32,798 nucleotides of DNA, from assembly GCA_012520525.1 (NCBI GenBank), contig JAAYOA010000087.1, positions 1 to 32,798 on the forward strand. Direction: 5' to 3'. The position numbers were made by a program, and so were the translations under genes. Positions 1,158 to 30,462 of the stretch are shown here, in pieces; the first letter of the stretch is position 1; the number at the start of each line of letters is the position of its first letter. Under the pieces are notes generated by a model. The model was not told the DNA's origin and made no database searches. It was given only the letters and a program-made list of their open reading frames with translations. This stretch comes from Clostridiaceae bacterium. GTDB lineage: Bacteria; Bacillota; Clostridia; Saccharofermentanales; Fastidiosipilaceae.

Positions 1158-3623
1158 TTAGACACCGAGTTCTGCTCTGCGCATTTTTTCAGCAACGGTG
1201 TAGTTATTGATCGGAGTGTATCCTTCGAGAGGCAAAAGTCTCTGATGGATGGCATCCAAGATCCAGTGTTTCTGCGGATAGTAGAACTTATCCAGATAGG
1301 CGAACGGCGAAATGACGTTCGGGGCGCCGACGACGACCGGCGGTGCATCCAAATATGTAAAGGCAAAGTCGGTCACGTTGCGGGCAATATCATTGGCGAA
1401 CGAGCCGCGCTCAACCCCATCGCAGACGATGGCCAAACGACCGGTCTTCTTGATGGATTCAACGAGTTTCTCATAGTTGAAAGGTACGAGCGAACGGGCG
1501 TCGATGACTTCCATCTGATAGCCATACTTCTCTTCGAGTTCTTTAGCTGCGTCCATAGCGATGTACAGGCTCGGACCAATGGTCAGAACGGTGACGTCGC
1601 TGCCTTCGCGCTTGACATCTGGCTCGCCGATCGGAATCTCATAGTATTCCTTCGGCACGCCTTCTTCATGGAAGAGTTCGCCGACGTCGTAGATACGCTG
1701 AGATTCAAAGTAGACAACCGGGTCAGTGCCGGACAGTGCAGCATTCATAATACCTTTGCAGTCATAAGGTGTAACTGGATAGACGACCTTCAAGCCAGGC
1801 ATATGGGTGCAGAGAGAACTCCAATCTTGTGCGTGTTGTGGACCGTATTTAGCACCGCAGGAGAGTCGCAGTACCACTGGCATCTTGAAAATGCCGGCAC
1901 ACATGCTCTGCCACTTAGGCAACTGATTAAATACAGCGTCCGCAGCGCGGGCCATAAAGTCGGTATACATTAACTCCGGAATGGCGCGACCGCCGGCCAT
2001 GCCATAACCAATTGCACAAGCGACGATCTGTTCTTCGGAGATCGGTGCGTTAAAGAGACGGTGATAAGGAAGAGCCTCTGTCATGCCGCGGTAAACACCA
2101 AAAGCGCCACCCCAGTCGCGATTTTCTTCACCTAAAGCGATCAGTGTAGGATCCTCATAGAATTTATCAAAGATAGCCTCAAAGATCGCGTCGCGGATAT
2201 TGAAAACTTTAAGTTTGGAAAGTTCTTTACCGTTCTCGTCGTAGCCGTAGCGGGCTTTCTTTTGGTTCATCTGCCAGCGAGGATTGTCTTCTTTTGCCAT
2301 CAATACTTCGGGTTCACCTTCTCCCATCTTGGGTTGGTGTCCGTGGGACAGCATGAGGTTTCTGATCTTGTTCGGATCATCAGCCAATGTATAGAGTGGC
2401 GAAATTTCGTCATTGATGGAGATCTTTAGGAGATTGCCGATACGTGCTTTGACGTCATCTTCGATCGAGACGAGTTCATTTTCATCAGCGAATTTGTGGT
2501 CAATCATGTTTGCCTTGTATTCGGTGATAGAATCTTGTTCGACCCAGAGATTAAATTCTTCTTCGGTACGATAAGACGATGCGTCTGTCGTAGAGTGACC
2601 TGATTGACGATAGGTTAAGACGTCTAACAGAACAGGACCGCGACCGTTGATCAGGAATTCTCTCTTTCTGCGGTGTGCGTCGATAACAGAGAATACATTC
2701 AGACCGTCAATGCGCTCGGTGTGCATCTGATCTGCATTGATACCTGCACCTAGGCGGGCCAGGACATCATAAGCCATCGTTTCACCGGCGGTCTGTCCGC
2801 CCATGGCGTAGAGATTGTTTTGGATACTGAACATCAGTGGTAGATTGCCGCGATATTCTTCGTCCCAAAGTTGGGTGAACTGTTGCATACCAGCGAAGTT
2901 CATGGCCTCAAATACAGGACCACAACCAGTTGCACCATCACCGATACTACAGACGACAATACCAGCTTGTTTTTGTAATTTTTTGTACAGAGCGAGACCT
3001 GTACTCATACCGGCAGAACCACCGACAATCGCGTTGTTTGGATAGATTCCAAAATCGGGGAATGCTAAGTGAGGCGCGCCGCCCAAACTCTTATGGAAAC
3101 CGTTTTCGCGACCAAAGGTCTCACACATAAATCCATAGAGGAAGAAGTTTTTGGCTAAATCTTTGACATCGGCCGAATCACAGTGTTTTTCAACCACTTT
3201 GAGCAGTGCAGGCCATTTTTCCATGATCTCCATCAGCTCTTTGTCGTCGCTGCGGCGAATTCTCCAGAATGCCTTTGCCATGACTTCACCGTGGGCGCGG
3301 TGAGCGCCGATATAAAAGTCATCTGTGGTCAGACTATAGCCAAGACCGGCGGCTAAAGCTTCCATACCAACTGACAAGTGGGCGGGACCGATGTAGGTAT
3401 ATTTTATACCTTGGTATTCTTTGACTGTACGGAGAGCATTCAGCATTGTTTCAAACTCACGATTCAATTGCATATCGTGATAGAGAATGAGCAGGTCTTC
3501 TTTGCTGAATTCACTGGCCGACTCTTTAAATGATTTGTCGTATTGGTTTACCGGAATATCTTTTAATTCTATAACTTGACTTTTCCGTAATACCTTGGGA
3601 TCTAGTATTTGACTTTTAGGCAT
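1158..3623 (-). CDS. Fused E1alpha-E1beta subunit of a 2-oxoacid dehydrogenase complex
   Basis: This TPP-dependent decarboxylase would oxidise a 2-oxoacid (pyruvate, branched-chain 2-oxoacid or acetoin-like) and acylate the lipoyl group of E2. It has 821 residues, with an E1alpha-like half (about 40-400) and an E1beta-like transketolase half (about 470-815) that are separate genes in most Gram-positive bacteria. The TPP motif starts with GDG at 228-230 and ends with NN at 269-270; the ~38-residue gap is longer than the usual 25-30. A further insertion of about 45 residues lies between HRAHGE (108-113) and FGRENG (170-175). GHSTTD matches the usual E1alpha phosphorylation-loop region, and GEEN plus GPQHAQDW mark the beta half. 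The ATG at 3621-3623 follows AAAGGA. E3 and E2 lie upstream in the same direction, so it is the E1 of that complex. The substrate is not determinable; the E1 fusion resembles annotated branched-chain-type enzymes. Confidence 0.9.
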   Translation of the reverse strand: MPKSQILDPKVLRKSQVIELKDIPVNQYDKSFKESASEFSKEDLLILYHDMQLNREFETMLNALRTVKEYQGIKYTYIGPAHLSVGMEALAAGLGYSLTTDDFYIGAHRAHGEVMAKAFWRIRRSDDKELMEIMEKWPALLKVVEKHCDSADVKDLAKNFFLYGFMCETFGRENGFHKSLGGAPHLAFPDFGIYPNNAIVGGSAGMSTGLALYKKLQKQAGIVVCSIGDGATGCGPVFEAMNFAGMQQFTQLWDEEYRGNLPLMFSIQNNLYAMGGQTAGETMAYDVLARLGAGINADQMHTERIDGLNVFSVIDAHRRKREFLINGRGPVLLDVLTYRQSGHSTTDASSYRTEEEFNLWVEQDSITEYKANMIDHKFADENELVSIEDDVKARIGNLLKISINDEISPLYTLADDPNKIRNLMLSHGHQPKMGEGEPEVLMAKEDNPRWQMNQKKARYGYDENGKELSKLKVFNIRDAIFEAIFDKFYEDPTLIALGEENRDWGGAFGVYRGMTEALPYHRLFNAPISEEQIVACAIGYGMAGGRAIPELMYTDFMARAADAVFNQLPKWQSMCAGIFKMPVVLRLSCGAKYGPQHAQDWSSLCTHMPGLKVVYPVTPYDCKGIMNAALSGTDPVVYFESQRIYDVGELFHEEGVPKEYYEIPIGEPDVKREGSDVTVLTIGPSLYIAMDAAKELEEKYGYQMEVIDARSLVPFNYEKLVESIKKTGRLAIVCDGVERGSFANDIARNVTDFAFTYLDAPPVVVGAPNVISPFAYLDKFYYPQKHWILDAIHQRLLPLEGYTPINNYTVAEKMRRAELGV

Positions 3624-3687
3624 TTTTGGGGTCCTTTCTTTCTTACGTTTATTTGTTGTTTGGTTCGCTGGACTTAATTTGTAATTC

Positions 3688-3753
3688 GGAATCGCACCCG
3701 GCTCGGTTGTCTGAACTGATATATGTCATTACAACCGATTGCCGGTTCGATCC
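3688..3753. other. Large imperfect hairpin between E3 and E1 genes
   Basis: An inner CGGTTGT/ACAACCG pair (3704-3710, 3731-3737), a CCGGC/GCCGG pair (3698-3702, 3741-3745) and an outer GGAATCG/CGATCC pair with one bulge (3688-3694, 3748-3753) nest into one stem with a 20-base loop. No T-tract follows. It sits in the 158-bp gap between E3 and E1 and could set differential mRNA stability or processing. Confidence 0.45.
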
Positions 3754-3781
3754 CTAGGAAGGTTTAATATGTAAAGATCAA

Positions 3782-5131
3782 TTAACGAATAATCTCTGCC
3801 ACAGTGGGGTGAGGGAAGATTACTTTCTTCGCCTGGTTGACCGTCATATTCTTCTCTACGAATGTTACAGCTGTGCTGACAATTTCGGAGGCTAGATTGC
3901 CCAGCATACCAAAGCCAAGAATGCGGTCGGTATTGGCATCGACGATCATATAAGCATCACCTGCAGTGTCCACATTTTCCACCATAAAGCGACCTGAAAA
4001 GACCATTGGCAGGGTGTGGCGAACCGGCTTATAACCAAGGCGCTCTGCCTCTTCTTCGGTGATGCCCACAGTAGCTACTTCGGGAGAAGTATAAATGACC
4101 GAAGGTACAGCATCGTAGTACATTCTGTCTCCCTTGCCAATGATGTTGTTGACAGCTACTTCGGTCTCCCGATAGGCCACATGAGCAAGGAGTATTTTGC
4201 CCGTTACGTCGCCGGCAGCATATACATTAGGCATATTGGTCTGCATGGATTCGTCGGTAACGATGGCTCCTCGCTCGGTCAAGACGCCAATCGTGTCAAG
4301 ACCGATGTCTGCACAAGACGCCCGTCTGCCGACGGACAACAATACTTTTTCCGCTTTTAATGTTTCAGTTTTACCATCTCGGTCGTAGACCACTTCCCCA
4401 TCGGCAATTTTTGTGACGGTGGCATCGGTAATGATTGTGATACCTTGCTTCGTCAGCTGTTTTTCCAGATCTTTAGCAATCTTGCTATCGATGGGTCCGC
4501 CGATCTGAGAGAGCATCTCCACAACGGTAACCTGGCTGCCTAGGAGAGCGAATGCGTGGGCCATTTCCAACCCGATGACACCGCCGCCGACGACGACAAA
4601 TTGCTCGGGAATCTGAGTTAAATCCAGAACTTCTCTGTTGCTGAGTACGAAGCCACTGTCGATGCCTTCGCGGACGCCGTCGATGGGCGGCACAATGGCT
4701 TCGGAACCGCTGGCAATCAGTAGGTAACTCGCTAGATCGGATTCGCCATCACATTCCACCCTATATCTGCCGTCGGCAGCCCGACCGTTGATAACGGCCT
4801 TGCCGATTTTGATGTCTACTTTAAGTTTTTTGAGGGTAAAGCCGACGCCGCCGGTCAAGGTTTTAACCACCTTATTTTTGCGTTTGACGATTGTTTCAAG
4901 GTCAACCTCGACGGAACCGACTTTGATGCCGCAGGCTTCGCCATTTCTGGCGTCGTGGACCAAGTGGGCGGCGTGCAACAAGTTCTTGGACGGGATGCAA
5001 CCTTCGTTGAGGCAGACACCGCCAATTTCACGTTTTTCAAATATTTTTACTTTGAGGCCGGCTTCGGCAGCGCGCTGAGCGCCGAGATAACCCGCCGGTC
5101 CTCCGCCAATTACAATCAGATCATAGTCCAT
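3782..5131 (-). CDS. lpdA: Dihydrolipoyl dehydrogenase (E3)
   Basis: This FAD flavoprotein reoxidises the dihydrolipoyl group of E2 with NAD+. It has 449 residues, slightly short for the family, and no N-terminal lipoyl domain. The FAD dinucleotide motif GGGPAG is at residues 9-14. The redox disulfide is in GGVCLNEGCIPSK (Cys40, Cys45). A second GGGVIGLE motif near residue 182 binds NAD, and AAGDVTG is the C-terminal FAD motif. The catalytic His-Glu pair is His441-Glu446 in HPTVAE at the C-terminus. The ATG lies 4 bp after the E2 stop, with its Shine-Dalgarno inside the E2 gene, so translation is probably coupled. Identity as a disulfide oxidoreductase is certain, and context fixes the E3 role. 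Confidence 0.95.
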   Translation of the reverse strand: MDYDLIVIGGGPAGYLGAQRAAEAGLKVKIFEKREIGGVCLNEGCIPSKNLLHAAHLVHDARNGEACGIKVGSVEVDLETIVKRKNKVVKTLTGGVGFTLKKLKVDIKIGKAVINGRAADGRYRVECDGESDLASYLLIASGSEAIVPPIDGVREGIDSGFVLSNREVLDLTQIPEQFVVVGGGVIGLEMAHAFALLGSQVTVVEMLSQIGGPIDSKIAKDLEKQLTKQGITIITDATVTKIADGEVVYDRDGKTETLKAEKVLLSVGRRASCADIGLDTIGVLTERGAIVTDESMQTNMPNVYAAGDVTGKILLAHVAYRETEVAVNNIIGKGDRMYYDAVPSVIYTSPEVATVGITEEEAERLGYKPVRHTLPMVFSGRFMVENVDTAGDAYMIVDANTDRILGFGMLGNLASEIVSTAVTFVEKNMTVNQAKKVIFPHPTVAEIIR

Positions 5132-5135
5132 GTCA

Positions 5136-6473
5136 TCACCCCTTCGCCAAGAGTTCGGTGAAGTTCTCGAGGTAGTAGCAAATCATGGCCATGAATTTAC
5201 CCGATGGCGTACCATCCGAGACGCGGTGGTCAATGGTCAGGGCCAGCGGCATAGCTTTATAAAGCTCAATGCCACCATCTTTGCTTTCGCGGACGCGGTA
5301 GTCGATACGGCAGATGCCAACGATGGCTACCTGAGGCGGATTTACGATGGGAATGAAAGTTTCCGCCGCCGCGTTACCCATGTTGGAAACGGTGATCGAA
5401 GCACCTTGGAGCAAGGCTGGGTCGATATTGCCGTCGCGACACTGACCGGACAGCCGTTTGATTTCTTGAGAAAGCTCACCGAGAGTCAATAGATCAGCGT
5501 TTCTGACCACTGGAACGAGCAGACCTTTAGGTGTATCAACGGCCACACCCAATTGAACGTGATCAAATTCGCGAACGATATATGTATCTTTAATAATATG
5601 AGCATTAAAGAATGGGAAGTCTTTGACGACCCGAGTAACCGCGTAATAGACCATATCGCCCAAGCCAATGCCTTGGATAACGGGGTCATTAGATGCCTTA
5701 AATTTCTTACGCAGGGCTAAAATACCGGTGGCGTCGAAAGAGGTGGTCATGCTTGCCTGTGCCATCTCGTTGGTCGCAGCCAAGAGATTGTCTGCAATGG
5801 CTCTGCGAGCAGGTGACATTTTGCGATCTTGATAAGTAACATCGACAGCCTTAACGATCTGATCTGCCCGTGTAGGTGCAGGAACAGCTTGTGCCGCTGG
5901 CGCTGGTTTAGTGGCTACCTCTGCCGCCGGAGCTTGACCCGCTTTGTCGAGGGATGCCATGACATCACGTTCAATGATGATACCGTCGGGACCTGTCATT
6001 TGTGTCACTAAACTCAAGTCCAAACCGGACCGCTCAGCTAGTGCGCGGGCTCTCGGGGAAGCCGGGATGTGTCCGCCTGCCACTGGGGCAGCGCCTTGGG
6101 ATTCGGTACCCAGCATGGACTGTAGGCTTTCGGGCGTTAAAGCTTGGTCTGCTACAGGTGCAGCAGCTGAAGTTTCCGCCGGAGCTGCTTCTACTGCGGC
6201 GACGGGAGCAGCCCCGCCTTCGGGAACATATTCTTCGCCCGGTTCACCGACGACAATCGCTGGTGTTTGGACGGGAACTTCATCTCCTTCTTCGATCAAG
6301 ATGGCTAAGACTGTACCGGCGACTTCAGATGCTACATCGTAGGTCGCTTTGCCGTTCTCGATCGAAAATAAAGTGTCGCCTATTTCGACAGTGTCCCCGA
6401 CCTTGACACTATATGAGGCGACAATCGCCGATTCCTCAGATAGTCCGATCATCGGAACTTTAATAATTTCCAT
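5136..6473 (-). CDS. Dihydrolipoamide acyltransferase (E2)
   Basis: This is the core acyltransferase of the complex, moving the acyl group from lipoamide to CoA. It has 445 residues. The N-terminal lipoyl domain (about 1-78) has its likely lipoylated Lys42 in ENGKA rather than the common ETDKA. An Ala/Pro/Glu-rich linker covers about 80-135. The peripheral subunit-binding domain at about 138-172 begins ASPRARALAERSG. A second flexible linker precedes the catalytic domain (about 205-445), which has active-site His416 and Asp420 in DHRVSDG. One lipoyl domain is present. The ATG at 6471-6473 follows AGGAG, 9 bp after the end of the oxidoreductase gene. Whether it is acetyl-, acetoin- or branched-chain-specific cannot be decided by eye. 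Confidence 0.93.
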   Translation of the reverse strand: MEIIKVPMIGLSEESAIVASYSVKVGDTVEIGDTLFSIENGKATYDVASEVAGTVLAILIEEGDEVPVQTPAIVVGEPGEEYVPEGGAAPVAAVEAAPAETSAAAPVADQALTPESLQSMLGTESQGAAPVAGGHIPASPRARALAERSGLDLSLVTQMTGPDGIIIERDVMASLDKAGQAPAAEVATKPAPAAQAVPAPTRADQIVKAVDVTYQDRKMSPARRAIADNLLAATNEMAQASMTTSFDATGILALRKKFKASNDPVIQGIGLGDMVYYAVTRVVKDFPFFNAHIIKDTYIVREFDHVQLGVAVDTPKGLLVPVVRNADLLTLGELSQEIKRLSGQCRDGNIDPALLQGASITVSNMGNAAAETFIPIVNPPQVAIVGICRIDYRVRESKDGGIELYKAMPLALTIDHRVSDGTPSGKFMAMICYYLENFTELLAKG

Positions 6474-17410: not shown

Positions 17411-18736
17411 TCAACCTGCGTCATCTTCGACGACCGTTTCAGCTTCGCTATCTTCCCCTGATGCCTCGTCATCGGTGTCACCCGTACAGTAATATGCATA
17501 AACACCATTGGCAATGCCCCTCGCCACTTCTTCTTGTCCATCAGGCGCACTCAAGATCGTGCGATCCGAACTATTGCTCAAAAAGCCCATCTCGACCAAC
17601 ACACTGTCTATGCCTGTACAACGCAAAAAGGCATAGTCACCTGTCAAAATTGGTCTCGCCTCCCTAACTTCTAATGCCGGCACAACGGCCACCGTTTCTT
17701 TGTAAATTAATTCAGCTAAACGCTGCCGTCCTGCGTCGTCATAACCTTGATAAATAGGATAAACCCGCTGCAGAGGATCGGCTACCATATCATAACTCAC
17801 ATCCTCAGACACACTGTCATAGAGCGTTCCGTTATCTAAATAATAGACTTGCATACCACCCACATCGGAATAGTATTCGTTAAAATTACAGTGCAGCGAC
17901 AAATAGATCGCATGTTCGAATTGATTCTCGATGTCATAGAGCATACGAGTCTGACGCGACTGACCCACACCACCTAAGATATCTCCACCACCGCTGTCCT
18001 GATTTAATTCATAAATGCGATCAAAATGTTTTTGGTAGCTGTTGAGAGCGCTGACATTTGCATTCGGATCTGTGGCCAGCACATTCTTTTTAGCTTCATT
18101 AATAAAATATTCCCCGACCATGGCGCTGCGATAGTAAATAGAAATAAAATCATCGGTATCCCGCGTCATGATCACCGTAGCCCCCATCTCTTCGAGCATC
18201 GGTTTGAGTCGTTTGCCAATTTCAATATTGATATCTTTTTCTAGAACTTCGTGAGGAGCATAGACCGGATAGACGGTGCCTGCATCGATGCCACCGTGTC
18301 CACAGTCTAGAAAAATGACAGCTCCAGTCAAAGGTTTGGGATCATTGGCCTGGGATTTAAAGTCGCTTAGTTTAGGCGCTCCTCCCGTCACGTCTTCTGT
18401 GACACCGTTGACAGACGGCCACTTTCTAATAACCTCTCCCGGAGGCAAGAAATCCGCCTGTTGGGCAGTCAAAGACAGACCAACTCCTGACTTAGCCAGA
18501 AACTCATTGCTTCTACCTAAGTCTGACCTTTCGTCCGACTGTGACGGACTAGGCAAGTCAGCTTCTCCTGAATTAGAGCTGTCGGATTCACTTAAATCCA
18601 CAATTTGAGTTTCGCGTGTAAAAAGATCCGGAAAGAGATCATCAAAAACCCCAGCTTTATAACCGACAAAGCCCGCCAAGCCAAACAAAATTATTACAAA
18701 TACAATCAAAAAACGTAATAGACCCTTTGATCTCAT
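17411..18736 (-). CDS. Membrane-anchored N-acetylmuramoyl-L-alanine amidase (Amidase_3)
   Basis: A zinc amidase that would cut the MurNAc-L-Ala bond of peptidoglycan outside the membrane. It has 441 residues. An uncleaved-looking signal anchor at about 8-27 is followed by a Ser/Asp/Glu-rich stalk (about 42-80). The catalytic domain spans about 138-418. Zinc ligands are likely His147 (DCGHGGID), Glu166 and His282 (SLHCN), with catalytic Glu382 (VEMGFLSN). The segment between Glu166 and His282 is about 60 residues longer than usual for the family. The tail is acidic. Its ATG overlaps the glmM TAA by one base (TAATG), so translation is coupled to glmM, linking wall turnover to wall precursor synthesis. 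No SH3 or LysM wall-binding repeat is seen. Confidence 0.9.
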   Translation of the reverse strand: MRSKGLLRFLIVFVIILFGLAGFVGYKAGVFDDLFPDLFTRETQIVDLSESDSSNSGEADLPSPSQSDERSDLGRSNEFLAKSGVGLSLTAQQADFLPPGEVIRKWPSVNGVTEDVTGGAPKLSDFKSQANDPKPLTGAVIFLDCGHGGIDAGTVYPVYAPHEVLEKDINIEIGKRLKPMLEEMGATVIMTRDTDDFISIYYRSAMVGEYFINEAKKNVLATDPNANVSALNSYQKHFDRIYELNQDSGGGDILGGVGQSRQTRMLYDIENQFEHAIYLSLHCNFNEYYSDVGGMQVYYLDNGTLYDSVSEDVSYDMVADPLQRVYPIYQGYDDAGRQRLAELIYKETVAVVPALEVREARPILTGDYAFLRCTGIDSVLVEMGFLSNSSDRTILSAPDGQEEVARGIANGVYAYYCTGDTDDEASGEDSEAETVVEDDAG

Positions 18737-20094
18737 TATTTATCACCATATTTTTCGACAATATAAGCAGCGATGCGCTTCGCCTCCGCGTCTATAACAT
18801 CGTGGTCGTCCCCTTCAATCATGACACGAATCTGGGGTTCTGTGCCCGATGGCCGGACTAGAACGCGACCTTCATCGCCCATAGATCGATCCACTTCTTC
18901 AATTAGTGCCATGATCTCAGGATCAGCCATCGCCTTGGTCTTGTTTTCGTTGGGAATAAAAGCAGGTACGAGAACTTGGGGATAGACGTGCATGATACTT
19001 TCCATCTCTTCTAAGTCTTCGCCATGGAATTCAAGGGCCTGCAACAACGCCAAGGCACTCAAAAGTCCATCTCCCGTTGTCGCCAATTCAAGTAAAATCA
19101 TATGTCCAGACTGCTCGCCGCCAAAGCCATAACCTTTGGTCTGCATTTCTTCTAGAACATAGCGGTCTCCAACTTTAGTACAAGCAATCTTTAAATCCAG
19201 CTTCTCCGCTGCTCGATGCAGACCTAGGTTGCTCATGACTGTAACGACCAATGTGTCCTGGGGAAGTCTCTGGCTGGCCTTGAGCTGACTCGCAATTATA
19301 ACCATAATCTTATCGCCGTCCACCGGTCTACCTTGGGCATCGACAGCCAACATACGGTCGGCATCGCCGTCAAAGGCAAAGCCAATATCACACTTTTCTT
19401 CCCGGGTGATCTGGCAAAGTTTGTCCAAGTGAGTGGAGCCACAGCCATCGTTGATATTTAAACCGTTCGGTTGGTTTGCAATGACAACGATCTCTGCACC
19501 CAATTCCCTAAAGAGGGAGGGCGCTAAATAACTGGCCGCACCATTGGCACAGTCAATGGCAATCTTCGTGCCTTTGAGATCAAGACCCAGACTATCTTTC
19601 AGATACTGGAGATAAATATTTTGACCTTTGCTATAGTCAAAAACACGCCCTAAATCCTCGCCTATTTTTTCTTGGCGCGGATCGCGGCTGTCAGCTTTGA
19701 TCATCCGTTCTATCTCATCTTCCACAATATCAGCTAGTTTAAAACCTTGTTTATTAAAAAATTTAATGCCGTTAAATTCAAAACTATTATGGGAAGCAGA
19801 GATCATTACGCCGGCATCAAATCCCTGTGTACGAGTTAAATAAGCAACGCCCGGTGTCGGAATGACATCGGCAAGATACACATCGGCTCCGGACGATGTA
19901 ATACCGGCAACAAGAGCCGCCTGCAACATTCCCGCTGAAATCCGGGAGTCATGACCCACTAGAATGCGTGGTCTGGGACCCGCTGGTTCTGCCAAAACCT
20001 TCGCGCCACAATAGCCTAAATTAAATGCTAATAGCGGTGATAACTCTGTGTTCGCTACTCCACGCACACCGTCTGTACCAAATAATCTACTCAT
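18736..20094 (-). CDS. glmM: Phosphoglucosamine mutase
   Basis: Converts glucosamine-6-phosphate to glucosamine-1-phosphate for UDP-GlcNAc and peptidoglycan. It has 452 residues, the normal size. The phosphorylated serine is Ser101 in MISASHN; the following residue is Ser instead of the usual Pro. The magnesium loop DGDADR is at 242-247. The phosphate-binding RPSGTEPQIRVMIE is near the C-terminus. The start MSRLFGTDGVRGVAN is canonical, with AGAGG upstream. It follows the CdaA-YbbR gene by about 217 bp, reproducing the cdaA-cdaR-glmM order of Bacillota, where c-di-AMP synthesis and GlmM are physically and functionally linked. Confidence 0.97.
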   Translation of the reverse strand: MSRLFGTDGVRGVANTELSPLLAFNLGYCGAKVLAEPAGPRPRILVGHDSRISAGMLQAALVAGITSSGADVYLADVIPTPGVAYLTRTQGFDAGVMISASHNSFEFNGIKFFNKQGFKLADIVEDEIERMIKADSRDPRQEKIGEDLGRVFDYSKGQNIYLQYLKDSLGLDLKGTKIAIDCANGAASYLAPSLFRELGAEIVVIANQPNGLNINDGCGSTHLDKLCQITREEKCDIGFAFDGDADRMLAVDAQGRPVDGDKIMVIIASQLKASQRLPQDTLVVTVMSNLGLHRAAEKLDLKIACTKVGDRYVLEEMQTKGYGFGGEQSGHMILLELATTGDGLLSALALLQALEFHGEDLEEMESIMHVYPQVLVPAFIPNENKTKAMADPEIMALIEEVDRSMGDEGRVLVRPSGTEPQIRVMIEGDDHDVIDAEAKRIAAYIVEKYGDK

Positions 20095-20311
20095 GGGATT
20101 TCCTCTCTACTTCTCAAATGCATCTAAATTAAGCTCAACTATACTTTATTCTTAACTATATTTTGCTAAAACATTTGATTTGATCTTCTGTTTCAATTTA
20201 ATTGTTTTTACTCTTCAATCCTCAAACTGATATCTAGACATTTACAAACCTTGACAAGGAGGCATTTGCCCTGGCATTACACCGAAAATTCAGGACTTTA
20301 GACTGATCAGT

Positions 20312-21970
20312 TTACGAATCTGGAATAACCGAAGGCATCCCTACGGGAATTGTGGTTGTCTCTGAATCTGTCTGGCTCGTCGCTTCTTCCGCAGTCGGTG
20401 AACTGGATTGTGGTAGACTAATTAAACCTTGACTACTGGACTGCTCCGACGGCATTGTTGTCATCTCAGTTGACGTTGACTCTGTCTGCTGGGAAGTGGT
20501 CGTCTCGATAACAACGGTAGTCTGACCCGGCTCCAGAATCTCTTCATTATCAACAAAGCCATCTCCCGCCGGATAAAATGAGACATACAAGGTCGGCGGT
20601 ATGCGCTTTGTAACTTTATATGCGGTACGGAAGAGATGGCGCACATCAACCTTTACATCTAATTTGACCAACACCGATGGGGCTCCTTCGTTAAACTGCT
20701 GTTGAATAGCCGCTACATCCAAGTCTTTAAAATCCAAACTTGCCGTGATATTATCGCCTGTCATCATGGATTCGTACTCTTTTCGGGTGCGAATTTCCAG
20801 ATTGACTACGTTGTCGGCCTTGCGATAATCCATATTAGCCTGATCCAGTACATTCATATTGTAAATTTGAACCGGCACCGTCACAGTAACTGTACGGATC
20901 GGATTGATCGTTGCTTGGACGTAAAACCAGAACAGCAGGGCAGCGAGAATGGCAACAATCTTCAACGAACGCGTTTGGCGACGCTGGGGTGTTTCGACCT
21001 CACCGTCACCGATACCGATGGAACTATCGTCATCCCTATATTGTCGTACAAAAAATCGCTGCCATAATCGTTGCAACAGAGGTCCTTCTGCCCGTACTTT
21101 TTTCGGCATCATCAAGCGCAAAATTATACGACGCAATTTTTCACTATCGTTAATGCGGTATAAGCGACCTTCTAACGTAAGAGAAATTGTGCCCCTTTCT
21201 TCGGACACAACGACACCAATCGCGTCGCTCATTTCACTGGCACCAATGGCCGCACGATGGCGGGTACCCAGACCATCTTTTACCCGGGTATCTTCGGAGA
21301 GGGGAACATGGCAACGAGCCGCATATATCCTACCGTTGCGGATCAACACGGCTCCATCGTGCATAGGTGAACCCTCATAAAAAATCTGCATGAGATTCAT
21401 CGCCGTTACTGCTGCATCTACTTTTATCGCATTGGGCTGATCAGCTAACTCCGCCGTTGAAGTCTGTCGCTCGATAATAATCAGCGCACCACAGCGATCC
21501 CGTGCCATATTCTTGCAAGCGATGGCAATTTCTTGAGCCAATTGTTCCACTACTGTCTCCGTTGTCGTGGGCTCACCGGAAACTGTACTGAGCAAACCGC
21601 CGGTCTTTCGCCCCATCTTCTCTAGAGCGCGCCGCAATTCTGGTTGGAAAATAACTAATAAAGCAATAGCTAAAAATGATATGGTGCTGGAAAGTATATA
21701 GTTCATAGTCTGTAAGCCAAGAAAACCGCTAAATAGACTAAAAACAATGATCAAAATTAAACCTTTAAGGAGTTGCCAAGCTCGAGTGTTCCGCACAAGT
21801 GCAAGAACAAAATAAAATACGGCAGCACAGATTGCTATATCAATCACCGTGCGGACAATATCCCATCCATTGCCAAACACAAACAAGGCGCTCGCAATTC
21901 CTTCGAACACCTTATTGAAAAAGGCAACAACATCGTCAATAAATTGAATGGCGATGACTAAATGGGGCAT
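20312..21970 (-). CDS. CdaA-type diadenylate cyclase fused to a YbbR (CdaR) domain
   Basis: A membrane enzyme that makes c-di-AMP from two ATP. It has 552 residues, about twice the ~275 of a lone CdaA. Three transmembrane segments lie at about 41-60, 67-85 and 90-108. The DAC domain (about 125-290) has the two signature motifs: DGA at 205-207 in MHDGAVLI, and RHR at 237-239 in GTRHRAA. A charged linker is followed by a fourth transmembrane segment at about 337-353 and then one YbbR-like module (about 357-485). The remainder is a Ser/Thr/Gln-rich tail. In Bacillus and relatives CdaR is a separate protein with several YbbR repeats that binds CdaA. Here regulator and enzyme are one chain with a single repeat, and the topology fits (DAC inside, YbbR outside). 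The ATG follows AAAGGA by about 10 bases. Confidence 0.93.
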   Translation of the reverse strand: MPHLVIAIQFIDDVVAFFNKVFEGIASALFVFGNGWDIVRTVIDIAICAAVFYFVLALVRNTRAWQLLKGLILIIVFSLFSGFLGLQTMNYILSSTISFLAIALLVIFQPELRRALEKMGRKTGGLLSTVSGEPTTTETVVEQLAQEIAIACKNMARDRCGALIIIERQTSTAELADQPNAIKVDAAVTAMNLMQIFYEGSPMHDGAVLIRNGRIYAARCHVPLSEDTRVKDGLGTRHRAAIGASEMSDAIGVVVSEERGTISLTLEGRLYRINDSEKLRRIILRLMMPKKVRAEGPLLQRLWQRFFVRQYRDDDSSIGIGDGEVETPQRRQTRSLKIVAILAALLFWFYVQATINPIRTVTVTVPVQIYNMNVLDQANMDYRKADNVVNLEIRTRKEYESMMTGDNITASLDFKDLDVAAIQQQFNEGAPSVLVKLDVKVDVRHLFRTAYKVTKRIPPTLYVSFYPAGDGFVDNEEILEPGQTTVVIETTTSQQTESTSTEMTTMPSEQSSSQGLISLPQSSSPTAEEATSQTDSETTTIPVGMPSVIPDS

Positions 21971-24649: not shown

Positions 24650-25648
24650 CTAGCGCTCCTCTCGAAAATAGGAGTGTCCCAAAGCAGCCGGTCCCATCCA
24701 ACCCTTGCGACCGCGAATATAACTGGCAATTAAGACAATAATTGTCATGATATATGGATACATATTGAAGGCATACTCTGAGAAGATTGCCAGTCCAGCC
24801 ACACCGGGAAACAAGGTGGGCAAACGCAGGCCGATGATATCCAATAGACCAAAGAGGAATGATCCAAAAATCGCTTTAATCGGATGCCAACGGACAAAAA
24901 TAACTAATGCCACAACGATCCAACCTCGACCTCCGGTGATATTGTCTGTCCAGGTGCCGATATGAGCTAAGGGATAGTAGGCTCCCGCCAGACCAGCCAA
25001 TGCCCCGCCAATCAAAATACCTGTGTATTTCACTCGATTGACGTTGATACCTGAGGCATCTGCCGCCGCCGGACTCTCGCCGACAGCACGCAGATGCAGA
25101 CCCGCTCGCGTTTTAAACAGGAAAATATACAATATAATCGCTAAAATAATAGCCAAATAGACAAAGATATTGTGTTTCAAAATGGCCTCATTGATAAAAG
25201 TCAAGACCGGACCGATCACCGGTTTATTCTCTATGCCATCCAAATTCAGCGTCAGCGGACCTTTGCCAAAAAATTGGGTCACTGCGCTGGGCACATTAGC
25301 ACCGTTACCGAGCTTGCCGATCGTGTTGCCCAACCCAACACCAAATGTCGTCAAAGCCAAGCCCGTCACAGTCTGATTGGCTCTCAAAGCAACAGTTAAA
25401 AAAGCATATACTAGAGATCCAAACATAGCTCCTAACATACCGCCGAGAAGTGCTAAAATGACACTTTCAGTGTGCAAAGCAACTGTATAAGCTAGAGCTC
25501 CTCCGAGCATCATCATGCCTTCCACACCCAGATTGAGGTGTCCTGCCCGTTCAGTCACAGTTTCGCCGAGAGCACCGAGAATCAGAGGGGTGGATATACG
25601 AATGCCAGACGCCAGCAACAGCGCAATAGAGAGGGAAACGGAATTCAT
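24650..25648 (-). CDS. Nucleoside-type ABC transporter permease (NupQ/YufQ-like)
   Basis: A 332-residue membrane permease of the branched-chain/ribose permease superfamily. The region GETVTERAGHLNLGVEGMMM (about 28-47) is the conserved segment of BMP-linked permeases, and the EAA-like loop GESPAAADASGINV follows in the second half. About 8-9 hydrophobic segments. The ATG overlaps the stop of the preceding permease by one base (TAATG). It pairs with the next permease as a heterodimer, with the ATPase at 26724-28316 and the lipoprotein at 28618-29829. Confidence 0.9.
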   Translation of the reverse strand: MNSVSLSIALLLASGIRISTPLILGALGETVTERAGHLNLGVEGMMMLGGALAYTVALHTESVILALLGGMLGAMFGSLVYAFLTVALRANQTVTGLALTTFGVGLGNTIGKLGNGANVPSAVTQFFGKGPLTLNLDGIENKPVIGPVLTFINEAILKHNIFVYLAIILAIILYIFLFKTRAGLHLRAVGESPAAADASGINVNRVKYTGILIGGALAGLAGAYYPLAHIGTWTDNITGGRGWIVVALVIFVRWHPIKAIFGSFLFGLLDIIGLRLPTLFPGVAGLAIFSEYAFNMYPYIMTIIVLIASYIRGRKGWMGPAALGHSYFREER

Positions 25649-26727
25649 TACGCAGCCTCCTTCGTTGCTTTGGACGGATATTCCCGCACTAGGCGATAAT
25701 TAACAAAGAACTCACAGCCTAAAGTGCCAAATAAAATCAGTCCTTGAATGGATTCAGCCAGTGCGGCCGGAATACCTAAAGCAAGCTCCATGCCCACAGC
25801 CCCTTGGGTCAGAGCGCCAAACAGGAAGCCAACGATCAGGATGCCCACCGGCGATAGTTTGGCAAGCCAAGCGATGATAACTGCAGTGAAACCACTGCCG
25901 CCACCGATCGACTCGGACAAATTGTATGTCGTGCCGGAAAGTTTGACCATGCCCGTCAATCCAGCGATAGCACCCGACATACAGATGCCAATTAAAATAA
26001 CTCTGTTTACATCCATGCCGGCATATCGAGCGGTATTTACACTGGCACCGACGACGCGAATTTCATAACCGATTTTGGTACGGCGCAACAGCATTGAAAC
26101 TAGAACGACAAGTATGATAGCGATGATCCAACCGATATGGATACCAAACACCTTAGGCAATATGGCATTGTTGGGTACTGCTGCAATCTTGGGAAACCCC
26201 ATCGCTTTGGGATCTTTCCAGGTCTGGGTGCGCAGCATCAATACATAATATTGCATGACGTAGTTTAGCATTAGCGTAAACAACGTTTCGTTGACGCCAA
26301 ATTTAGCTTTAAAATATGCCGGAATAACAGCGATCAACATACCTCCCAAGAGACTCCCCGCCGCCATTGCCAAAAGCATAATGATCTTAGGCAAACTGGT
26401 GGGCAAATTGTGGGAAATAAATGTGGCAACCACCGCACCAGCTAAAAGTTGACCCTCGCCGCCAACATTGACATAGCCCATATGGAACGCAATGGCCACA
26501 CCGAGGGAAATAATGATCAGCGGAATGGCTGTTATAATTGTGCTCCTGATATTAGACATAGAGCCGAAAGCACTTTTAAACAGAGATCCGAAGGCCTGCC
26601 AAGGATTATAACCCATGACCCCTAGCAAAATAGCAGCAACCAAAAATGACAACACAATAGCGATGACTCGGATCAAAGCCGCCTTGCCGCCGGCAATGTG
26701 GTCCCGTTGGACAATTCTAATTCTCAA
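25648..26727 (-). CDS. Nucleoside-type ABC transporter permease (NupP/YufP-like)
   Basis: A 359-residue permease with about 9-10 hydrophobic segments; GYVNVGGEGQLLAGA (about 90-104) is the family's conserved segment, and EIRVVGASVNTARYAGMDVNR is the EAA-like loop. The start is TTG at 26725-26727, with AGGAGG 7 bases upstream and the ATPase stop TGA overlapping it (TTGA). The overlap implies equal, coupled expression with the ATPase. Confidence 0.9.
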   Translation of the reverse strand: MRIRIVQRDHIAGGKAALIRVIAIVLSFLVAAILLGVMGYNPWQAFGSLFKSAFGSMSNIRSTIITAIPLIIISLGVAIAFHMGYVNVGGEGQLLAGAVVATFISHNLPTSLPKIIMLLAMAAGSLLGGMLIAVIPAYFKAKFGVNETLFTLMLNYVMQYYVLMLRTQTWKDPKAMGFPKIAAVPNNAILPKVFGIHIGWIIAIILVVLVSMLLRRTKIGYEIRVVGASVNTARYAGMDVNRVILIGICMSGAIAGLTGMVKLSGTTYNLSESIGGGSGFTAVIIAWLAKLSPVGILIVGFLFGALTQGAVGMELALGIPAALAESIQGLILFGTLGCEFFVNYRLVREYPSKATKEAA

Positions 26728-28316
26728 CTCCTGACCTCCTTGTCTGCTGGATCTGCCTGCCCTTCCAATAGCGCAGCGGATCTCGATTTTTCTGCAGGTG
26801 ACAACTCCACTGTACCTGCCATCATCAAGCCCAGTTCCTCCTTGTCGGTCTCCCGCGCGTTAACAATACCTGTCACCTCTCCTTGGCACAACACCATTAT
26901 GCGGTCGCAGAGTTCCATCAATACATCCAGATCTTCACCGATATAGAGGATCGCTACACCTTTTGCCTTTTGCTGATTGAGCAAGTTATAGATCGTGTGA
27001 GAAGAGTTGATATCCAATCCCCGCACAGCATAAGCAGTAATTAAAAGTTTGGGATTTAAATTGATCTCCCGCCCAAGAATAACTTTTTGAATATTACCCC
27101 CGGAAAGCCGACTAACGACCTGATTGACGCTGGGGGTTCTGATCTCCAATTGGTCTACAATTGCCGTTGCCTTGTCTTCGGCCTCCTTGCGATGCAACCA
27201 AGGTCCTTTATAGAAGGCATAGTCCTTCAACATTACATTGTCCACGATGTCCATATTGGCCACTAGACCCATGCCCAATCGGTCTTCGGGAATAAAACTC
27301 ATGCTGATGCCCATTCTGATGATCTCTCTAGGCGTGTGTCCAAGTAGGGATTTTCCATCAAATTCGATGTGTCCTGTCGCCTTGGGCTGCAAACCAGCGA
27401 TGGCTTCACACAGTTCTTTTTGACCGCTGCCCGCCAGTCCGGCGACACCTAAAATTTCCCCGGGACGCATATCAAAGGTGACGCGATTCAACATCAAGCT
27501 GCCGTGTTCGTCTCGGACCGATAAATCCTCAACATTTAGACAGACAGGTCGAGGCAGGGGGTTGGGTCGCTCGATCGACAGATCCACTTGATGGCCCACC
27601 ATCAATTCAACCAATGTCTGAGGTGTAATTTTCTCTGTAGAAATCGTACCTACCATTTTACCTGCCCGCAAGACAGTCACCTGACTACAGAGATCCAAAA
27701 CTTCATTCAATTTATGACTGATAAAGATCACCGAGCGGCCTCTGTCCCGCATGCGGCGCAGGACATTAAACAGACCTTCGATCTCCTGCGGCGTCAGCAC
27801 CGCCGTCGGTTCATCCATAACCAGGATCGTGGCGCCGCGATACAACACCTTCATAATCTCCACATTTTGTTTCTCGCCGACGGACATATCTTTAACTAAT
27901 TTCAGGGGGTCCAAGACTATGCCGTATGCCTCGGAGAGTTCTTTCAGCTTTTTGACAACAGCATTTTTTCCCAAACTGAGACCACTGCCCGTACCTATAA
28001 TGATATTCTCCCAGGCTGTCATGTGGTCAATCAGCTTGAAGTGCTGATGAACCATGCCCACCCCTTTTTCTAGAGATTGACGGGGGGACGTAAAGCGACA
28101 AAGCTCACCGTTGATATATATCTCTCCAGCGTCAGGGCTGTAAATACCTGCCAGGATATTCATTAGAGTGCTTTTGCCAGAACCATTTTCGCCGAGCAGC
28201 GCATGGATCTCTCCTTTTTGAAGAGTAAAATCAACATTGTCGTTGGCCTTGACTTTACCAAAAGATTTGGCAATTCCGATCATCTCTAGGATCGGATTTG
28301 ACACTGTCTGTTGCAT
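26724..28316 (-). CDS. Double-domain ABC transporter ATPase (NupO/YufO-like, nucleoside uptake)
   Basis: 530 residues with two ABC modules, as in the RbsA/NupO group. Module one has Walker A GENGSGKST (42-50), signature MSVGEKQNVEI (144-154) and Walker B ILVMDEPT (164-171). Module two has the degenerate Walker A GLAGSGQKE (293-301), a good signature RLSGGNIQK (403-411), and LLITAYAVRGLD (424-435), where relatives usually read LLIAAQPTRGLD. The second site is therefore probably not, or only weakly, hydrolytic, as is normal for the group. The ATG is about 15 bases from AGGAGG, a long spacing. Leftward with both permeases overlapping. Confidence 0.94.
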   Translation of the reverse strand: MQQTVSNPILEMIGIAKSFGKVKANDNVDFTLQKGEIHALLGENGSGKSTLMNILAGIYSPDAGEIYINGELCRFTSPRQSLEKGVGMVHQHFKLIDHMTAWENIIIGTGSGLSLGKNAVVKKLKELSEAYGIVLDPLKLVKDMSVGEKQNVEIMKVLYRGATILVMDEPTAVLTPQEIEGLFNVLRRMRDRGRSVIFISHKLNEVLDLCSQVTVLRAGKMVGTISTEKITPQTLVELMVGHQVDLSIERPNPLPRPVCLNVEDLSVRDEHGSLMLNRVTFDMRPGEILGVAGLAGSGQKELCEAIAGLQPKATGHIEFDGKSLLGHTPREIIRMGISMSFIPEDRLGMGLVANMDIVDNVMLKDYAFYKGPWLHRKEAEDKATAIVDQLEIRTPSVNQVVSRLSGGNIQKVILGREINLNPKLLITAYAVRGLDINSSHTIYNLLNQQKAKGVAILYIGEDLDVLMELCDRIMVLCQGEVTGIVNARETDKEELGLMMAGTVELSPAEKSRSAALLEGQADPADKEVRS

Positions 28317-28510
28317 GGCTATACCGCTCTTCCTCCTTATCGGTTTTCTACCGACTTTACAGTTTCATACTGCATTTTTGTTTTAAGCTGCTCAAATAGC
28401 TCTTCACCGACCGGTAGTTAAACTCTAAATAAGATCTAATTGTGAATTTATCAAGTTGTCATTTCCCCTTTTAAAACCGCGGTTGGCGTCCTGGGAAAAC
28501 TACTTTCACA

Positions 28511-28558
28511 TTTATTAAAAACAACATTCGGTGTTAACCCTTAAGGGCTAACACCGAA
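28511..28558 (-). terminator. Intercistronic terminator after the BMP lipoprotein gene
   Basis: TTCGGTGTTA (28527-28536) pairs with TAACACCGAA (28549-28558), with CCC/GGG and a TTAA loop inside. On the minus strand it is followed by TGTTGTTTTTAATAAA. A leaky terminator here would give more binding protein than ATPase and permeases, a common layout in ABC operons. It lies inside the 301-bp gap 28317-28617, which has no gene. Confidence 0.75.
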
Positions 28559-28617
28559 AATTATTTAATCGATTAAATAAATCGAAAATTTAGCAGCAAA
28601 CGATCTCGCATAGTGCC

Positions 28618-29829
28618 TTAATTGCTGGGGATCTGACCCAAGACGCCTTCTACGAAATAGTTCATTTCCATCTGTTCTTCGCGGGACAGACTCTTGCCAG
28701 CCGGGCAAACTTCGTTGCCATCTTGATCCTTTAATGGACCAGCAAAGACAAAGGCATTGCCTTCTTCGGCGATTTGTGGCTCAAGTTCTTCCACGGCAGC
28801 TTTCGCTTCTTCCGGAACTAGGTCAGTCAACTCATCGAGGGCAACCAGACCTTCCTTCATACCGCCCCAGCTCTCTTCAATAGTCCATGTGCCATTCATA
28901 ACGGCATTCATTTTGTGCTCATAGTAGCTGGACCAATCCCACAGGGGTGCGGTCAAGTAAGCATCGGGAACCACTTCGGCAGCACTCAAGTCATAGCCAA
29001 TCGCAAATTTACCGGCATCCTCAGCGGCCTTTAATGTGGACGGCGTATCCTGATGCATGGCTAGAACGTCACAACCTTCGTCCAACAGTGCTTTGGCTGT
29101 TTCAGTCTCTTTGCCTGGATCAAACCAAGTCATGGAAAATTTCACCGAAACGGTCGCTTCGGGATTGACCGAGCGAACACCCAGTGTGAAGGCGTTGCAG
29201 CCACGGATTACTTCGGGAATCGGCTGAGCAGCGACGTAACCGATCTTATTGCTCTCAGTCTTATAACCGGCGACGATACCAGACAGATAACGAGCCTGTT
29301 CGATCTGACCAAAGTAGTTGTCCATATTTTCGCTTGTCATAAAGCCCGAGCAATGTTCAAATTTGACGTCGGGGTAGTCGTGGGACAGGCGCTCCAGCGT
29401 CTCCATATAACCAAAGCTAGTAGCAAAGATGAGACCACAGTTCTGCTCCTCAATCATTGTGCGCACTGCATTCTCAGTTGCCTGAGCATCTGTGTCCGGT
29501 ACATTTTCTTTTTCAAACAGCTGAACTTTGTCAGCGCCGATGGATTCAACAGCTTTGGCAAAGCCTTCGGCGTGTCCCTGAGACCAGCCACCGTCTGTTT
29601 TAGTACTTATATAAAGTATACCGACATTCAGTTTGTCTGTAGCAGCCGCGGTATCAGCGTCCGCCTCATCTTGCGCTGTCGTCTCTGCATCAGCATCAAT
29701 TTCTGTTTCGGCAGCCGCGGTAGTGGTATCTTCGTCACCCGACTTGACGCTGCCTTCACAGCCTGTCAGCGCGAAGCCCGCCACTATGCCCAAAGCGGCA
29801 ACCAGAGCTCCAATTTTTCTGAATTTCAT
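28618..29829 (-). CDS. BMP-family substrate-binding lipoprotein (nucleoside/purine type)
   Basis: 403 residues. The lipoprotein signal peptide ends in LTGC with lipidated Cys24. An unusually long acidic, Thr/Ala/Asp-rich linker follows (about 26-64), then the type I periplasmic-binding fold starting KLNVGILYISTKTDGGWSQGH. The BMP/PnrA-like segment GQIEQARYLSGIVAGYKT is near the middle. It is the binding protein for the downstream ABC ATPase and permeases. It lies 17 bp after xpt, with AGGAAAGA before the ATG, so ligands are probably purine nucleosides or bases (inference from context and family). Related BMP proteins also bind other solutes. Confidence 0.92.
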   Translation of the reverse strand: MKFRKIGALVAALGIVAGFALTGCEGSVKSGDEDTTTAAAETEIDADAETTAQDEADADTAAATDKLNVGILYISTKTDGGWSQGHAEGFAKAVESIGADKVQLFEKENVPDTDAQATENAVRTMIEEQNCGLIFATSFGYMETLERLSHDYPDVKFEHCSGFMTSENMDNYFGQIEQARYLSGIVAGYKTESNKIGYVAAQPIPEVIRGCNAFTLGVRSVNPEATVSVKFSMTWFDPGKETETAKALLDEGCDVLAMHQDTPSTLKAAEDAGKFAIGYDLSAAEVVPDAYLTAPLWDWSSYYEHKMNAVMNGTWTIEESWGGMKEGLVALDELTDLVPEEAKAAVEELEPQIAEEGNAFVFAGPLKDQDGNEVCPAGKSLSREEQMEMNYFVEGVLGQIPSN

Positions 29830-29846
29830 TGTACTCTTTCCTCCAA

Positions 29847-30419
29847 TTAATCTCTAAAGACAATTCTATGATTTGCCATCGATTCAATGATCGCAAGAGA
29901 CTCGATCCTGTAGCCTTTTTCGCGCAAGCGGTCACCACCATGTTGGAAGCCTTTTTCAATTACAATCCCAGCTCCGCACAGAGTCGCTCCTGCCTGCTCA
30001 ATAATTTCAATTAGCCCCCGCAAAGCCTGCCCCTCTGCCAAGAAGTCATCAATCAATAACACCGTATCGGCCTCGGTCAGGTACGCCTGCTCGACGACAA
30101 TACGGTATTCTTTGCGTTTGGTGAAAGAAAGAACTTTCGTTTCATAAGTTCTTCTGTCTAACGTAATTGATTTGGTTTTTTTGGCAAAAAGCAACGGCAC
30201 GCCTAGATGGAGACCCGTAAAAATGGCAGGCGCAATGCCCGAAGTCTCAATCGTCATCACTTTGGTTACTCCACAGTCAGCAAATCGTTCAGCAAACGCT
30301 AAACCGATCTCGTTCATCAACTGAGGGTCAATCTGATGATTCAGAAAGCTGTCTACTTTTAATACATCCACTCCGGAAATAACGCCCTTTTCCATTATGG
30401 CCTGTTTGAGCTGCTCCAT
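29847..30419 (-). CDS. xpt: Xanthine phosphoribosyltransferase
   Basis: Converts xanthine and PRPP to XMP for purine salvage. It has 190 residues from the ATG at 30417-30419, which has AGAGGTGAT just upstream and reads MEQLKQAIMEKG, matching the usual Xpt start. An in-frame ATG at 30446 would add nine residues and is unlikely. VLKVDSFLNHQIDP and IETSGIAPAIFTGLHLGVPLLFAKK are hallmark Xpt segments, and VLLIDDFLAEGQA is the PRPP-binding loop. It heads the transporter unit, so salvage and uptake are co-expressed. I see no purine riboswitch in its short leader. Confidence 0.96.
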   Translation of the reverse strand: MEQLKQAIMEKGVISGVDVLKVDSFLNHQIDPQLMNEIGLAFAERFADCGVTKVMTIETSGIAPAIFTGLHLGVPLLFAKKTKSITLDRRTYETKVLSFTKRKEYRIVVEQAYLTEADTVLLIDDFLAEGQALRGLIEIIEQAGATLCGAGIVIEKGFQHGGDRLREKGYRIESLAIIESMANHRIVFRD

Positions 30420-30437
30420 GATCACCTCTTTATGTTC

Positions 30438-30462
30438 ATTGATCAATAACGACTATATTATA
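30438..30462 (-). promoter_or_regulatory. Candidate -10 and start-site palindrome for xpt
   Basis: TATAAT on the minus strand at 30457-30462, about 40 bases before the xpt ATG; the -35 is weak. A 10-bp palindrome ATTGATCAAT (30438-30447) lies just downstream, near the expected transcript start, and could be an operator. Confidence 0.45.

Follow-up and report, generated by a model that had tools for sequence, protein, structure and literature searches.

The gene at the centre of this analysis encodes in one chain the diadenylate cyclase CdaA and, by homology, the core of its partner CdaR. The reading we favour, at a probability of roughly 0.7, is that the added membrane helix and YbbR module fix the two at a 1:1 ratio and would let c-di-AMP output be tuned from the membrane or wall, with GlmM acting from the cytoplasm. 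The window, by which is meant the whole 32,798-nt stretch of contig JAAYOA010000087.1 (Clostridiaceae bacterium) that was analysed, comes from an order which we take to be Saccharofermentanales, and the reading of its open frames finds the gene as a single uninterrupted frame (Table 1). Relatives have the same frame, and the central proposal of the initial annotation, a cyclase and its YbbR partner in one reading frame, holds good.

Table 1. Features of the fusion gene and its neighbours, in window coordinates
Feature	Position	Strand	Basis or remark
CdaA-CdaR(YbbR) fusion gene	20312..21970	-	552 codons + stop; frame kept in relatives
CdaA N-terminal membrane region, residues 37-112, three helices	21635..21862	-	Pfam CdaA_N, hydropathy, AF2
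Diadenylate cyclase (DAC) domain, residues 150-269	21164..21523	-	Pfam PF02457; Foldseek to CdaA crystal structures
DGA catalytic motif, residues 205-207	21350..21358	-	Invariant in 29 relatives
RHR catalytic motif, residues 237-239	21254..21262	-	Invariant in 29 relatives
Cytoplasmic linker, residues 288-332 (~45 aa)	20975..21109	-	Alignment, AF2, hydropathy
Fourth membrane helix, residues 333-356	20903..20974	-	Hydropathy; profile match to CdaR N-terminal helix; conserved Trp
Single YbbR module, residues 357-470, predicted extracytoplasmic	20561..20902	-	AF2, Foldseek, YbbR Pfam in relatives
Gln352 codon, outer end of helix 4	20915..20917	-	Fusion versus separate CdaR comparison
Arg396 codon, within YbbR module	20783..20785	-	Fusion versus separate CdaR comparison
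Ser/Thr/Glu-rich disordered tail, residues 471-552 (82 aa)	20315..20560	-	Composition; low pLDDT; absent from most relatives
glmM, phosphoglucosamine mutase	18736..20094	-	NCBIfam TIGR01455, 543.6 bits, over cut-off
N-acetylmuramoyl-L-alanine amidase-like protein, overlaps glmM end	17411..18736	-	CwlD-like match, E=4.5e-27, below cut-off

Identity of the two parts

The cyclase part is matched by the DAC family (Pfam PF02457, residues 150-269) at E=1.2e-36, with 125.3 bits against a cut-off of 27, and by CdaA_N (PF19293, residues 39-111) at E=2e-6, with 28.3 bits against 23.8, and the protein also passes the curated cut-off of the NCBIfam equivalog TIGR00159 'CdaA' (198.5 versus 188.8 bits). 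The DGA and RHR motifs lie at the residues claimed for them (205-207 and 237-239) and are invariant in the 29 aligned relatives. By hydropathy, residues 37-110 form the CdaA membrane region and 333-356 a further helix, bearing out the fourth membrane helix that had been proposed. In the full-length AF2 model (mean pLDDT 75.1, pTM 0.46) the N-terminal helices run from 35 to 60, 64 to 83 and 87 to 128, the DAC and YbbR parts are well resolved, and a Foldseek search with the whole model retrieves CdaA crystal structures at E=7e-16; at a pTM of 0.46 the mutual arrangement of the two parts is not predicted, and packing of helix 4 against helices 1-3 draws no support from the model.

A Pfam search of the genome yields this one DAC protein only. 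There is also one 7TMR-HDED protein of the PgpH type, so that both synthesis and breakdown of c-di-AMP are plausible. The window gene is the cell's only detected diadenylate cyclase and, by predicted identity, a CdaA. With ordinary CdaA/DacA (TIGR00159; PF19293 plus PF02457) it shares the three membrane helices, the DAC domain with DGA and RHR, the standing of sole detected cyclase and the glmM neighbour, but while the length of ordinary CdaA is about 270-300 aa, the window protein has some 260 residues more, made up of helix, YbbR module and tail.

Identification of the YbbR module could not come from the single-protein Pfam search that missed it, and relatives and fold were used instead. PF07949 (YbbR) has no match in the window protein nor anywhere else in its genome, which taken literally speaks against the single YbbR module of the initial annotation; relatives, a CdaR profile and the fold overturn that objection. 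The same family matches 18 of the 29 aligned fusion relatives over the same stretch (best 3e-7). Of the 98 genomes of the order, 49 give a score above its cut-off, and in the loci inspected the match falls in the DAC's own frame wherever the DAC is present on the contig. When fusion residues 334-470 are made into a profile, it picks up separate CdaR proteins of many Clostridia and other Bacillota, with E values down to 1e-29, over residues ~15-135, where their N-terminal helix and first YbbR lie. Helix 4 corresponds in this match to the single N-terminal helix of separate CdaR. With the helix left out, a profile of the module has its highest score on repeat one in 76 of 101 CdaR proteins. Modelled alone from 51 sequences (AF2), the module reaches a pLDDT of 95.7, and its top four PDB matches in Foldseek (5hqh, 4qdy, 3lyw and 2kxy) are all YbbR domains, the best being 5hqh, Listeria Lmo2119 (E=1e-4, probability 1.00).

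As judged from profile and predicted fold, then, the C-terminal part is homologous to the helix and first, membrane-proximal YbbR of CdaR, the later repeats being absent, and the covalent 1:1 arrangement with one module only that had been claimed is found as described, both being in one chain. Like CdaR/YbbR proteins (PF07949 repeats), the fusion has a helix with a conserved Trp, then Asn-Pro, then YbbR. It differs from them in that separate CdaR has its own gene and three or four YbbR repeats (PMC10243994), whereas here one repeat shares the chain of the cyclase; other genomes of the class mostly give two to four YbbR matches. No separate YbbR is found elsewhere in the window genome by the PF07949 search, this being a 92.7% draft in which a separate cdaR of the window species might still be missing from the assembly, and no separate CdaR was found in the sampled genomes of the order.

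Linker length varies among relatives, with mostly low AF2 confidence and basic residues just before helix 4. The tail (T16 S15 E10 P7 Q7) is peculiar to the window species and in part to its family; in the 29-relative alignment most sequences stop near residue 470. Its pLDDT is mostly 33-39 beyond residue 490. The tail had been described as rich in Ser, Thr and Gln; the first two stand, while Glu outnumbers Gln.

Distribution, origin and gene neighbourhood

Searched at the protein level, 92 of the order's 98 sampled genomes hold a relative, and in 88 of these the open frame spans 435-569 aa. Four genomes (G025, G068, G079 and G083) have short frames at or near contig ends; that of G025 was checked and stops at the contig end. 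Cyclase and CdaR-like part are in one frame in the 57 loci inspected with profiles, the fused frame is present across four families of the order, and clostridial MAG records (L052-L058) are among the carriers. Searching genome contigs with a single sequence (P0001) gave no match and the alignment-based scan succeeded. A tree built from 101 cyclase domains separates the 52 fusions from the rest at a branch whose SH-aLRT is 100, which entails one state change. By these comparisons the fusion is of single origin within one clostridial order and fixed across the sampled genomes. The window cyclase itself (L001 in the tree) has a long branch that falls outside the remaining fusions, those of its own family included; it may have evolved fast, or the branch may be misplaced.

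Beyond the order, among the matches listed from a class sample of 293 genomes, cyclase frames reach no more than 353 aa, and a phylum sample of 398 genomes gave no other true fusion among the matches listed, that sample lacking the streptococci reported to have fusions; rare fusions elsewhere could have escaped both sets of matches. Two long DAC frames considered as independent fusions were set aside, one (G716) being two genes separated by a single stop and the other (G458) a frame extended on the N-terminal side with cdaR separate.

How the two genes came to be one is suggested by their arrangement elsewhere. In other lineages a single stop codon is all that separates abutting, in-frame cdaA and cdaR in 5 of 94 split pairs examined, and a further family, f149, is arranged likewise (...FKWRR*GLKKIA...). 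Loss of one such stop could fuse them, and the likely origin is a loss of this kind together with the shortening of cdaR to its helix and first repeat. Single-stop in-frame pairs were noted at L063, L069, L060, L098, L074 and L171-L174, where stop-codon readthrough to give a fusion product is conceivable.

The claim that glmM stays next door is confirmed by a TIGR01455 match 217 bp downstream on the same strand. Of the 57 fusion loci, 47 have glmM on the downstream side in the same orientation, often abutting, and several of the rest have short flanks. The order of the cdaA-cdaR-glmM operon of Bacillota is kept, with its first two genes merged so that there are two genes and not three; the initial annotation was right that a one-gene fusion beside glmM replaces the usual three-gene order, though it is no trait of the window genome alone, being order-wide. 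One family of the order (L055, 4053-11182) departs from this in having glmS between fusion and glmM, the run of genes being nagA, fusion, glmS, glmM, a GlmU-like hexapeptide acetyltransferase-type protein and nagB: a compact amino-sugar operon enclosing the c-di-AMP synthase.

In the window the fusion and glmM are separated by a 217-bp A+T-rich gap (20095-20311), most relatives having them abutting, and glmM may have its own promoter there; a promoter and terminator scan of the locus gave promoters near chance level, and no RNA family matches anywhere in the window, this gap included. A search for a c-di-AMP riboswitch found none in the window genome; one occurs in 2 of 12 relatives searched. 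Farther off, 24650-30446 holds by eye a nucleoside/BMP-type ABC transporter (ATP-binding protein, two permeases and lipoprotein) and a phosphoribosyltransferase-like gene, which looks like a cluster for purine nucleoside uptake and salvage, and 1158-6473 what resembles a dehydrogenase set for 2-oxo acids or acetoin (fused E1, lipoamide dehydrogenase and E2).

Proposed working and its rivals

Contact between CdaR and CdaA through their membrane helices has been reported experimentally (PMC8573169, PMC6368335, PMC10243994), and GlmM contacts the cyclase domain, inhibiting it by blocking active oligomers (PMC8573169, PMC6368335). In the fusion the DAC domain would be cytoplasmic and the YbbR module outside the membrane, facing the wall. 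Helix 4 would pack on CdaA's own helices, as the helix of separate CdaR does, and the fixed 1:1 ratio could bias pairing or oligomerisation of the cyclase domains. Output of c-di-AMP would then follow changes in membrane or wall by way of YbbR, and the cytoplasmic influence of GlmM. The module may sense a ligand or tension, or nothing at all, and the extracytoplasmic sensing put forward in the initial annotation is a conjecture. What CdaR does to CdaA is variously described, with reports of both activation and repression (PMC8573169), and for S. aureus YbbR no conclusive regulatory effect was seen (PMC6368335).

That last result lends weight to a serious rival, to which we give about one chance in five: that the module senses nothing and is a passive anchor or stabiliser, holding the cyclase or aiding folding of the membrane region. 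Its fast divergence fits such a role, the modules of relatives being only 16-36% identical to the window sequence. Yet the module is kept in every full-length fusion examined, two positions of helix and module (Gln352 and Arg396, discussed below) are near-invariant while the rest diverges, and in other species CdaR does alter CdaA output (PMC8573169), all of which tells against a purely passive part.

Two further explanations would make the fusion less than it seems. The gene might be fused and its product nonetheless cut, or its CdaR part started internally, so that the working proteins are separate as elsewhere. The variable linker, mostly predicted to be disordered, is something a protease could cut, but the window protein has no Met codon from residue 289 to helix 4 for an internal start, and retention of the fused frame across four families tells against either version, which strikes us as quite improbable. 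More improbable by far, indeed scarcely credible, is that an assembly or sequencing error, or a recent stop loss in the window strain, accounts for the frame. The assembly is admittedly a draft in 165 contigs; however, an error at the junction is excluded by dozens of independent genomes in which the frame is likewise unbroken (the 88 of 98 and the 57 inspected loci, in one clade), and the frameshift or misassembly there that the initial annotation had named as a danger was not borne out by the survey of related genomes.

To see what might distinguish fused from separate regulators, conservation over the helix and first YbbR was compared between 57 fusion loci and 87 separate CdaR proteins. 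Most of the conserved positions are common to both, namely the helix Trp (98% of fusions, 95% of separate CdaR), the Asn-Pro after the helix and an Asp in the module. What sets the fusions apart is a near-invariant Gln and Arg: the position of Gln352 is Q in 98% of them and uncommonly so in separate CdaR, and that of Arg396 is R in 100% against 30%. Since the fusions share one ancestor this conservation is partly inheritance; both positions are nevertheless kept, far as the module has otherwise diverged. A tentative extension of the favoured reading, for which we would not claim better than a minority chance, is that the fusion is a minimal self-contained CdaA-CdaR unit, helix and YbbR-1 being enough, in which Gln352 and Arg396 form a fusion-specific relay from outer face to cyclase.

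Novelty and meaning

Fusion of CdaA to CdaR is not as such new, for a 2023 review notes it in some streptococcal strains, as large proteins (UniProt A5LQF8, E1M7C3, V8IIN0; PMC10243994). The likeness is that both proteins are in one chain. Going by the published description, the streptococcal cases belong to some strains only, whereas the fusion here is fixed across an order and has one YbbR. As far as has been checked, what appears to be new is the order-wide fixation, the one YbbR, the lack of a separate CdaR and the Gln352/Arg396 pair; no description of an order-wide, one-YbbR fusion without separate CdaR was found, and Galperin 2023, 'All DACs in a row', may list the architecture. Automatic annotation would say plain 'CdaA', because TIGR00159 passes and YbbR goes undetected, and the fusion is thus easily overlooked.

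The regulation of CdaA by CdaR, unsettled in the literature (PMC8573169), is complicated by there being two proteins of unknown ratio, a complication that the natural fusion bypasses; the fusion also offers a single-chain construct for structure determination. Retention of a one-YbbR fusion across an order implies a workable fixed 1:1 ratio, partners that can function without separating and later YbbR repeats that can be lost. The prediction for model species is that CdaR cut down to its helix and YbbR-1 should still act on CdaA, the fusion pointing to the minimal working unit of the CdaA-CdaR pair.
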